Shown in pieces: positions 58,639 to 61,087 of a stretch of 64,000 nt of DNA (the stretch's first letter is position 1; each line of letters opens with the position of its first letter). The DNA is from an uncultured bacterium (lineage in GTDB: Bacteria > Armatimonadota > UBA5829), in contig CALJES010000008.1 of the NCBI GenBank assembly GCA_938074205.1, positions 124,001 to 188,000 of the forward strand. Direction: 5' to 3'. The translations under genes were made by a program, and so were the position numbers. The notes beneath the pieces are model-generated. The model worked only from the letters and a program-made list of their open reading frames with translations, ran no database searches and was not told the DNA's origin.

Positions 58639-58814
58639 CTCTCCCGAAGTTACTATTCTTACCCCAAACTGGCTGACAAGGTGAGCCATTTTCATAACTG
58701 AAAGGCATTGTTGAGGTGGCTAACAGACCCCGAATGGACCGACGGCTTCGCGAAAAATGCTCCCTAAAGATCGCTTTCCATGTCTCCGATAATCCATAAT
58801 AAGAGTATAGGGAC

Positions 58815-58905
58815 GAAAAGGGCAAACTCTTCGAAAGAAGGGGACGCAAAGCCGAACGGGGCTAAATCCTGCATTGAGACAGGACATGCCGGCCGGGTTG
58901 CCGTT
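58815..58905 (+). ncRNA. Cyclic-di-GMP-I riboswitch aptamer (GEMM)
   Basis: The conserved core of the GEMM class is found in order: GGGCAAAC (58820-58827), a hairpin closed by GAAA (CTTCGAAAGAAG), then GGGACGCAAAGCC (58841-58853), a second small hairpin to GGGGCTAAA, a third stem TCCTG/CAGGA (58867-58884), and a CCGGGTTGCC closing strand (58893-58902) that pairs back with GGCAAAC. Bases of the ligand pocket (the A after GACGC and the C-G of the paired strands) are in the usual places. It lies in the 5' leader of the FlgM-like gene at 59006, so the gene should be controlled by cyclic-di-GMP. Confidence 0.92.
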
Positions 58906-58917
58906 TCCGAAAGTCGA

Positions 58918-58973
58918 GGGTTTGCCTTTTTTGTTGTCACGTGCTATGATGTAAGTTAACCAAGGGCAAACCC
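58918..58973 (+). promoter_or_regulatory. Expression platform: alternative pairing and T-run
   Basis: GGGTTTGCC (58918-58926) is followed directly by TTTTTT. Its last seven bases are complementary to GGCAAAC of the aptamer (58821-58827), which also pairs in the aptamer's own P1. A second copy, GGGCAAACCCC (58964-58973), is complementary to the full GGGTTTGCC. The three segments compete: aptamer pairing would free the middle segment to pair with the downstream copy. The T-run fits a terminator decision. Which state is ON is not evident. Confidence 0.6.
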
Positions 58974-59005
58974 CGATGGTTTTAGATTGCGGGGTGAGGA
59001 AAAAG

Positions 59006-59308
59006 ATGAAAATCTCAGCAGCGGAGTCGAACAGAGCGAGGACTGACAGCAAGAAGACCGAAGAGAAGATTCTGCCGGCAGTTAGACCTAGAGCAGGCGT
59101 GAGTCTGCGGGAAGGATTGACGAGACAGCTATCGCCTTTGGAGCAAGGCATGTTGGTAGCAGAGTCTGCCCTCAAAAACGTACCGGACGTGCGAGAAGAA
59201 CTGGTCCGCGATTTGAAGAGCCGTATAGAGAGCGGCGAGTACGATGTGAGCTCCGAGGAAATTGCTGAAATGATGCTGCGCCGCCTGTCTGCCGACAAAA
59301 TAAGATAG
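59006..59308 (+). CDS. flgM: FlgM-like anti-sigma-28 factor
   Basis: A 100-residue protein from ATG 59006, preferred over ATG 58976 because GGGGTGAGGA lies just upstream and an extra 10 residues are not family-like. The C-terminal half contains the FlgM helix motif: VREELVRDLKSRIESGEYDVSSEEIAEMMLRRL. The N-terminal half is low-complexity, K/R/T-rich and probably disordered, also as in FlgM. It would bind and inhibit sigma-28 until the flagellar hook is complete. No other flagellar gene is present, and it is isolated between two regulatory structures, with a terminator after it. The cyclic-di-GMP riboswitch upstream ties it to the motile/sessile switch. Confidence 0.85.
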   Translation: MKISAAESNRARTDSKKTEEKILPAVRPRAGVSLREGLTRQLSPLEQGMLVAESALKNVPDVREELVRDLKSRIESGEYDVSSEEIAEMMLRRLSADKIR

Positions 59309-59335: not shown

Positions 59336-59374
59336 AGCCGAGGCATAGTATGATCCCCTAGCCTCGGCTTTTTG
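59336..59374 (+). terminator. Rho-independent terminator after flgM
   Basis: AGCCGAGGC (59336-59344) pairs with GCCTCGGCT (59361-59369) and TAG/CTA extends it inside the loop; TTTTTG follows. It isolates the riboswitch-flgM unit from parA. Confidence 0.88.
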
Positions 59375-59459: not shown

Positions 59460-60245
59460 ATGGCGATAGTTTTCGCGGTTGTGAATCAAAAAGGCGGTGT
59501 GGGTAAGACGACGACGGCGGTGAGTTTGGCTGCATGTCTCGCTGAGGAAGGACGCAAGTGCCTGCTGGTCGACTCGGATCCCCAGGGGAACGCAACGAGT
59601 GGTGTAGGTGTTATTAAATCGAGCATAGGTGAGTGTATATACGATGTGTTAATTAACGAGGTGCCTATCGAGAGAGTTATTGTCCCGACGGAGACGCCAA
59701 ATCTGTACCTGGCCCCGGCTAAGCTTGACCTGGCTGGTGCTGACATTGAGCTAATGTCTATGATGTCGCGCGAAACGAAGCTCAGGCAGGCTGTGTCGAG
59801 AGTAGTAAACGACTACGATTTCGTGATTATAGATTGTCCACCTTCTTTGGGACTGCTCACCGTTAATGTTCTAACTGCAGCCCAATATGTTATCCTGCCC
59901 ATACAATGCGAGTATTATGCGTTGGAGGGGATCAGCCAGCTTTTGAGAACCGTGGAGTTGGTACGACAGCATCTGAATCCACGACTTGAGATTGCGTTTG
60001 TGCTATTGACAATGTTTGACTATCGGACTAATCTGTCACAGCAGGTGGTCGACGAGGTCCGGCGGTTTTTTGGGGAGAAGGTTTCATCGGTGCTTATTCC
60101 CCGAAACGTAAGACTAAGCGAGGCTCCAAGCCACGGGAAACCCATAACAAGCTACGATCCAAAATCCAAGGGCGCTGAGGCGTATAGGAAATTCGCGGCA
60201 GAGGTGATGGCCTTTTGGAAAAGCGAGGTCTCGGCAAAGGACTAG
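59460..60245 (+). CDS. parA: Chromosome partitioning ATPase ParA (Soj)
   Basis: A 261-residue ParA with the deviant Walker A motif KGGVGKTTT (11-19, both signature lysines), VDSDPQGNATSG as switch I/Walker A', and FVIIDCPPSLG (about 122-132) as Walker B. It dimerises with ATP, coats the nucleoid and, with ParB-parS, moves origins apart. The gene overlaps parB by 31 bp. No plasmid-type N-terminal DNA-binding domain is present, which marks it as chromosomal. Confidence 0.97.
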   Translation: MAIVFAVVNQKGGVGKTTTAVSLAACLAEEGRKCLLVDSDPQGNATSGVGVIKSSIGECIYDVLINEVPIERVIVPTETPNLYLAPAKLDLAGADIELMSMMSRETKLRQAVSRVVNDYDFVIIDCPPSLGLLTVNVLTAAQYVILPIQCEYYALEGISQLLRTVELVRQHLNPRLEIAFVLLTMFDYRTNLSQQVVDEVRRFFGEKVSSVLIPRNVRLSEAPSHGKPITSYDPKSKGAEAYRKFAAEVMAFWKSEVSAKD

Positions 60246-61087
60246 GAGCGCTGATCCCAGGGGCGGACAGGGATCAACAACAGAGGTCGATCGAACTGAA
60301 TATTGACAGCATCAGCTCCAACCCGTACCAGCCGCGGGAGTCGGTCGACGAGGAGAAGCTCCAGGAACTGGTAAGCTCGATTCGCATGCACGGTGTGCTG
60401 CAGCCGGTAGTGGTAAGGCCGAAGGGGGCGGGAAGTTATGAGTTAGTCGCTGGCGAGCGACGCCTGCGAGCTGCTAGAGCAGCGGGGCTGGCAACTATTC
60501 CTGCTGTTGTGCGCCAACTGACCGATGAACAGAGCCTTCAGATAGCGCTGATTGAAAATCTTCAACGCGAGGACATCAACCCCCTCGACGCAGCAGCTGC
60601 CTATCGTCGATTGATGGAAGAATTTGGGCTTACGCAGGACGAAATAGCTTTGACGCTTGGAAAGAGCCGGTCCGCTGTCGCCAACACGTTGCGATTATTG
60701 AACTTGCCGTCAGAGGTGCGTGATTATGTCCGATCCGGAGAGTTGTCGGAGGGGCATGCTCGGGCTGTGCTCAGTCTGAGCGACGAGGATCTTCAGCGCA
60801 GGTTAGCGCGGCTGGCAATTGAGAAGTCGCTGTCAGTTCGAGAAACGGAGAGGCTTGCAAGACAATGGTTAGCTCAGGGTGTCAGTCGCGAAGCAATGCA
60901 AAATGTTTCACGTGAAACATCTCCGCGGGAACTCGATCCAAATATTGCAGAAATAGAGTCTAGGCTCCGAGAGATATTCCGCACAAAGGTAAGCCTCATT
61001 ATCAACAAGGACCGTGGCCGCATAGAGATAGAGTTCTACTCCTCTGAGGATTTGGAGCGCATTCTCAGTTTGTTAACGGGTTACTAG
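60215..61087 (+). CDS. parB: Chromosome partitioning CTPase ParB (Spo0J)
   Basis: A 290-residue ParB starting at TTG 60215 inside parA; the start MEKRGLGKGLGALIPG is typical of chromosomal ParB. The CTP-binding N-terminal domain contains SIRMHGVLQPVVV and VAGERRLRAARAAGL (GERR motif) near residue 80. The helix-turn-helix DNA-binding domain (about 135-200; LTQDEIALTLGKSRSAVANTLRLLNLP) recognises parS. The C-terminal dimerisation segment is short but complete. It nucleates on parS and spreads. A consensus parS lies within its own coding sequence (60904-60919). Confidence 0.97.
   Translation: MEKRGLGKGLGALIPGADRDQQQRSIELNIDSISSNPYQPRESVDEEKLQELVSSIRMHGVLQPVVVRPKGAGSYELVAGERRLRAARAAGLATIPAVVRQLTDEQSLQIALIENLQREDINPLDAAAAYRRLMEEFGLTQDEIALTLGKSRSAVANTLRLLNLPSEVRDYVRSGELSEGHARAVLSLSDEDLQRRLARLAIEKSLSVRETERLARQWLAQGVSREAMQNVSRETSPRELDPNIAEIESRLREIFRTKVSLIINKDRGRIEIEFYSSEDLERILSLLTGY
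60904..60919. promoter_or_regulatory. parS centromere site
   Basis: TGTTTCACGTGAAACA, a perfect 16-bp palindrome identical to the bacterial consensus parS, lies within parB and is translated as part of its NVSRET segment. It is the ParB loading site and is usually found close to the replication origin. It marks the end of the window as origin-proximal. Confidence 0.96.

Follow-up and report, generated by a model that had tools for sequence, protein, structure and literature searches.

Control of flagellar operons by c-di-GMP riboswitches is known from Clostridioides difficile, in which Cd1 (Cdi-1-3), located before the flgB operon, is an OFF switch: in response to c-di-GMP, transcription terminates and the flagellar genes, with sigD in the same controlled operon, are shut down (PMC6366702, PMC9262584). 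The flgM leader analyzed here carries an aptamer of the same class. However, whereas Cd1 turns off early flagellar genes together with sigD, this leader is predicted to be an ON switch, placed on an anti-sigma factor and behind a sigma-28 promoter. An ON switch with mutually exclusive aptamer and terminator, as predicted here, is found in the cGAMP riboswitch (GEMM-I type) of Geobacter metallireducens pilM, but in pilM the terminator is formed with the 3′ strand of the aptamer (called A there), in contrast to the 5′ strand used in the flgM leaders (PMC9262584). In enteric bacteria, FlgM synthesis is inhibited by the sRNAs OmrA and OmrB (PMC7549644). As in those bacteria, the FlgM level would set sigma-28 activity, and FlgM would be controlled after transcription has started; the post-transcriptional regulator there is an sRNA, whereas a ligand-binding leader is predicted here. 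Enteric flgM has a sigma-28-dependent promoter. The aptamer, FlgM, and the sigma-28 control of flgM are each already known kinds, but we found no report in the open-licence literature of a riboswitch on flgM or any anti-sigma factor; most subscription papers were outside the scope of this search. Such a riboswitch would target an anti-sigma factor, so that one short RNA connects an entire regulon to a second messenger, and it would sit within the feedback loop of the regulon that it controls. The arrangement suggests how the almost unstudied phylum Armatimonadota chooses between swimming and settling, since c-di-GMP, the signal of sessile life, could apparently set the strength with which the swimming program brakes itself.

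The window, a 64-kb stretch of an Armatimonadota genome (G000; 3.0 Mb, 97.9% complete) that has FliA, three flagellin-domain genes, and six GGDEF matches, contains a single Rfam match. This is a c-di-GMP-I (GEMM-I) aptamer at 58811–58905 on the plus strand, which was found by covariance search with RF01051 (72.9 bits, gathering score 35, E = 2.2e-12, model positions 1–87 of 87). The gene behind it, at 59006–59308 (+), encodes a 100-aa anti-sigma-28 factor, FlgM, which scores 54.4 bits with PF04316 against a curated cut-off of 25; the match covers profile positions 4–54 of 55, including the C-terminal sigma-binding region, and an alignment of 14 relatives bears out the assignment. The start codon is placed at 59006, where MKIS is conserved and the Shine-Dalgarno (SD) sequence GGGGTGAGG precedes it; the mechanical open reading frame opens at an in-frame ATG at 58976. 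Both identifications, a GEMM-I aptamer and an FlgM-type protein behind it, had been proposed in an earlier sequence-only reading of this DNA and are upheld by these scores.

That the aptamer binds c-di-GMP and changes expression is inferred, as there are no binding or reporter data. An A at the contact position before GCAAAC marks cGAMP-type (GEMM-Ib) aptamers, and it could be argued that the ligand is another dinucleotide such as cGAMP, because this A is found at several of the other GEMM sites in the class. However, the contact position is G in the window, in the GGCAAAC at 58821–58827 inside the aptamer, and in all flgM leaders of the class, which is the c-di-GMP rather than the cGAMP type. 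We consider a different ligand very improbable.

To see whether the pairing is a matter of chance, we searched 61 Armatimonadota genomes from 27 families, nearly all of them metagenome genomes filed under Armatimonadota/Armatimonadetes, for the aptamer and for FlgM. In 33 of the 61 genomes, from 13 of the 27 families, flgM is preceded on its own strand by an aptamer at a distance of a few hundred bases (one of the 33, G009, was counted although its pair is split over two contigs). In the class to which the window's genome belongs, the arrangement is present in 22 of the 23 flgM-bearing genomes, so the search for GEMM aptamers before flgM in relatives, which had been put forward as a check, came out in favor of the pairing. 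The exception, G023, has flgM with neither the aptamer nor the promoter motif described below. Class genomes without flgM (G006, G007, G010, G012, and G024) also have no flagellin match and no FliA above the cut-off. Across the whole sample, 32 of the 46 genomes whose FliA exceeds the cut-off have the arrangement, versus 1 of the 15 others (p = 3e-5), and that one genome is only 69% complete. The idea that a GEMM aptamer came to stand next to flgM by chance or as a relic finds support only in the missing leader of G023 and is contradicted by its presence in 33 genomes and 13 families with a covarying platform; we regard it as hardly tenable.

Upstream of the aptamer, a pattern search and the conservation of the leaders identified a promoter of the sigma-28 (FliA) type, CTAAAG-N16-CCGATAAT, at 58764–58793 (+). 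The pattern TAAAN15-17CCGATAA has one match in the 64 kb versus 0.05 expected. With up to three mismatches, CTAAAG-N15/16-CCGATAAT is found in 29 of 33 flgM leaders, exactly in the window, and in 2% of shuffles. It precedes the aptamer by about 27 nt in the 29 leaders, with 22–43 nt (usually 25–32) between the promoter end and GGCA, and among 42 other GEMM sites of the class the motif occurs once (Fisher 2e-15). The sigma-28 consensus of E. coli is TAAAGTTT-n11-GCCGATAA (PMC2859248). The elements expected of such a promoter, a TAAAG −35, an GCCGATAA −10, and a spacing of about 15 nt, are present, and the spacing in the window is one base longer than in the E. coli consensus. In relatives, the exact pattern also stands before one flagellin gene (G030:C69) and one cheW gene (G019). 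Since the motif is frequent in flgM leaders, rare elsewhere, and shared with flagellin and cheW genes, sigma-28, which FlgM inhibits, is most likely the factor that transcribes the leader, although this rests on sequence motifs. The sequence-only reading missed this promoter and with it the feedback loop, as well as the role of the SD sequence as a fourth strand and a sigma-28 site before a c-di-GMP enzyme.

Other candidate promoters were less convincing. A CGATAA adjoining the aptamer was rejected as a sigma-28 −10 element because transcription would then start inside the aptamer and because it is common to other GEMMs. Four exact matches to the pattern in G015–G018 fall, by eye, in the terminal part of a different reading frame ahead of an RsbW-like gene, a location that suggests coding conservation and not promoter function. 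A possible second promoter, sigma-70-like (TTGCCT-N17-TATGAT, matching at 9 of 12 positions and with a TG ahead of the −10), overlaps the Y strand and U-run at 58922–58950 (+). Its −10 box, with at least five of six matches at a spacing of 17, recurs in 5 of 22 class leaders against a null of 2%, which is suggestive only; if real, it would yield flgM mRNA without the aptamer.

The part of the leader that follows the aptamer contains strands that compete with it. Strand A, AAAAGGGCAAACTCTT at 58816–58831 (+), is the aptamer 5′ strand and doubles, through its pairing with strand Y, as the 5′ arm of a predicted terminator. Strand Y with its U-run, GAGGGTTTGCC-TTTTTT at 58916–58932 (+), would form the 3′ arm of this long-range intrinsic terminator, a prediction based on conservation and minimum free energy; it contains GGGTTTGCC at 58918–58926, followed by T6 at 58927–58932. 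With their flanks, A and Y form 16 continuous pairs, AAAAGGGCAAACUCUU with GAGGGUUUGCCUUUUUU, at −20.5 kcal/mol (p = 0.003 when the downstream leader is dinucleotide-shuffled 300 times). A second complementarity, that of GGGCAAACCCC at 58964–58974, has p = 0.007, and the three mutually complementary strands claimed in the sequence-only reading are thus located where it had described them. A GUUUGCC-like Y strand with a U-run, complementary to the aptamer 5′ strand, is present in 22/22 class leaders. Y and the U-run are retained in every one of them, amid variable neighboring sequence, and Y abuts the U-run in nearly all, with one intervening base in two (G019 and G025). As controls we used 42 other GEMM aptamers of the class genomes, placed by their covariance coordinates: at most 2 of these have an A:Y terminator (Fisher 3e-15), and 15 have the usual terminator against the aptamer 3′ strand. 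The expression platform on flgM therefore takes the 5′ strand, whereas sister riboswitches of the same genomes take the 3′ strand. Over 24 leaders, the A:Y pairing has a Fisher-combined p of 1e-22, to be discounted for relatedness; all these Fisher values overstate the case, because related leaders are not independent samples.

Folding of both states, which the sequence-only reading had called for, gave two competing structures. For RNA that ends with the U-run, the minimum free energy is −53.4 kcal/mol with A:Y and −34.3 kcal/mol with the aptamer kept. This 19 kcal/mol advantage of the A:Y fold means that the ligand could act only kinetically. A simple scan of the window leader found no local GC-rich hairpin directly before the U-run, and a local hairpin terminator was set aside. 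As in an intrinsic terminator, the 3′ arm abuts a U-run and has a complementary 5′ arm, which here is the aptamer, about 90 nt upstream. We infer that the polymerase stops at this long-range A:Y terminator.

Two further strands and the SD sequence extend this competition. Strand X (58906–58919, +), whose pairing is supported by a swap test, is a variable segment directly before Y that pairs with strand X′, AAGGGCAAACCCCGAT at 58962–58977 (+). As judged from pairing and covariation, X′ pairs either with X and Y or, via CCCCG, with the SD sequence of flgM (CGGGGTGAGG, 58990–58999, +); covering of the ribosome-binding site by X′ is possible in many leaders. Native X:X′ pairs average −20.4 kcal/mol versus −14.8 kcal/mol for partners from other genera, a gain of 5.7 kcal/mol (p = 5e-5 with one leader per genus), and all four Watson-Crick pair types occur at several X:X′ positions, the pairs having been chosen by the folding program. 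Opening the SD sequence of the window costs 6.1 kcal/mol without X and 1.6 kcal/mol with X; over the 22 leaders, the means are 4.9 and 2.6 kcal/mol (p = 0.007), and the SD sequence opens more easily with X available in 16 of them, G000 included. In G016 and G018 it lies inside the X:X′ helix, which gives the opposite translational sign, and the covariation between X′ and SD is marginal (p = 0.04, one leader per genus). A second, translational layer of control besides termination is likely, but we are less sure of it. In aptamer-flgM leaders outside the class, Y and the U-run are mostly absent and no significant platform was found. A shared platform there of 3′ strand and SD (GGAGGCAA against UUGCC) looked suggestive by eye, but the swap test did not bear it out (p = 0.41) and we do not claim it.

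Taken together with the X:X′ and SD evidence, the A:Y terminator favors an ON switch by termination, and we consider it probable that a c-di-GMP-I ON riboswitch gates the sigma-28/anti-sigma-28 feedback loop. In the proposed mechanism, the leader would be transcribed by sigma-28 RNA polymerase. In the absence of c-di-GMP, the nascent Y strand would invade the aptamer 5′ strand and form the terminator; no flgM would be transcribed, and sigma-28 would stay active. With c-di-GMP, the aptamer would retain its own 5′ strand and the polymerase would read on; the competition is kinetic, and with ligand bound the aptamer can win it. In the read-through RNA, X is predicted to pair with X′. So paired, X and Y could no longer reach the aptamer, and X′, both in G000 and in the majority of its relatives, would leave the ribosome-binding site uncovered. 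The FlgM so made would bind sigma-28 and the late flagellar genes would stop; that it binds and inhibits sigma-28/FliA is inferred without binding data. The sign, c-di-GMP raising FlgM, is likewise an inference from the terminator architecture, and it agrees with the sign given in the sequence-only reading.

The same strands can be read in other ways. In an OFF switch, the bound aptamer would free X, X:X′ would hide the ribosome-binding site, and FlgM would fall, with A:Y as a mere folding alternative. The two leaders with the SD sequence in the X:X′ helix fit this scheme, as does a short pyrimidine stretch after the aptamer that can pair with SD in several leaders. However, availability of X eases SD opening in the majority of leaders, this genome's among them, and the U-run directly after Y is needed by a terminator but not by a folding alternative; we therefore think an OFF switch unlikely. 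It could also be suggested that control is purely translational: A, Y/X, X′, and SD would just compete, and the polymerase would not truly terminate at the U-run. The entire aptamer is enclosed by the terminator stem, an unusual arrangement, and the general lack of Y and U-run outside the class indicates that control is probably translational there. Within the class, the conservation of both elements in every leader speaks against this, and we hold it to be no more probable than the OFF switch. The ON switch by termination remains our preferred reading.

FliA-dependent c-di-GMP enzymes exist, such as PdeH/YhjH of E. coli, where c-di-GMP acts via YcgR on the motor. A comparable enzyme might belong to the sigma-28 regulon of G000, with a riboswitch on flgM instead of YcgR on the motor. 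The only other exact promoter match in this genome is directly before a GGDEF-HD gene (L126, G000:C12:413600-414793, minus strand), whose product is HD-GYP-like with GGEEF and HHExxDGxGYP motifs; the sigma-28-type promoter stands 17–35 nt upstream. A sigma-28-like site with up to three mismatches lies 5–49 nt before a start codon of the gene in 13 of 14 full-length class orthologues (L126, L212–L224), for which we estimate a chance expectation of about 0.02 each. This conserved promoter suggests that sigma-28 may also set the level of the c-di-GMP that is read by its own brake, an inferred loop through the messenger. In its closed form, sigma-28 would transcribe both the enzyme and the riboswitch-flgM unit, and act through c-di-GMP and FlgM back on sigma-28; we offer this tentatively, as possible without being able to call it likely. 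If true, the loop would mean self-limiting flagellation or a bistable swim/settle switch, depending on whether cyclase or phosphodiesterase activity dominates, and it would be kept across much of an Armatimonadota class.

The target of FlgM is not certain, since G000 has two FliA/WhiG-type sigma factors above the curated cut-off (G000:C8:69925-70596 and G000:C18:53588-54250) as well as a divergent second FlgM-like gene. Two such sigma factors are also found in many class relatives. The divergent FlgM-like frame lies in the flagellar cluster of G000 between flgJ-like and flgN-like genes (L199:2396-2683, +; 95 aa; 13.7 bits, under the cut-off), which may bring the number of FlgM proteins in G000 to two.

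On the 3′ side, a terminator-like hairpin read from the sequence, AGCCGAGGC...GCCTCGGCT-TTTT at 59336–59373 (+), indicates that flgM is monocistronic before parA, and similar hairpins follow the flgM stop codon in most relatives, as judged by eye. In the window, parA and then parB follow the flgM unit (59460–61087). At 18 of the 33 loci, some of them outside the class, parA is directly behind the riboswitch-flgM unit, from which we conclude that the neighborhood is old.

Several observations concern other GEMM aptamers. Another one in G000 (G000:C15:73945-74041, L128) precedes an HD-GAF-GGDEF gene (from L128:1363) and has a canonical 3′-strand terminator; it is a c-di-GMP riboswitch on a c-di-GMP enzyme. 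In the class, the G before GCAAAC is replaced by A in the aptamers L164, L177, L178, L180, L181, L184, and L189. Tandem GEMM aptamers, spaced within about 200 nt, are found at G004:C49, G008:C3, G014:C205, G037:C116, and G037:C93.
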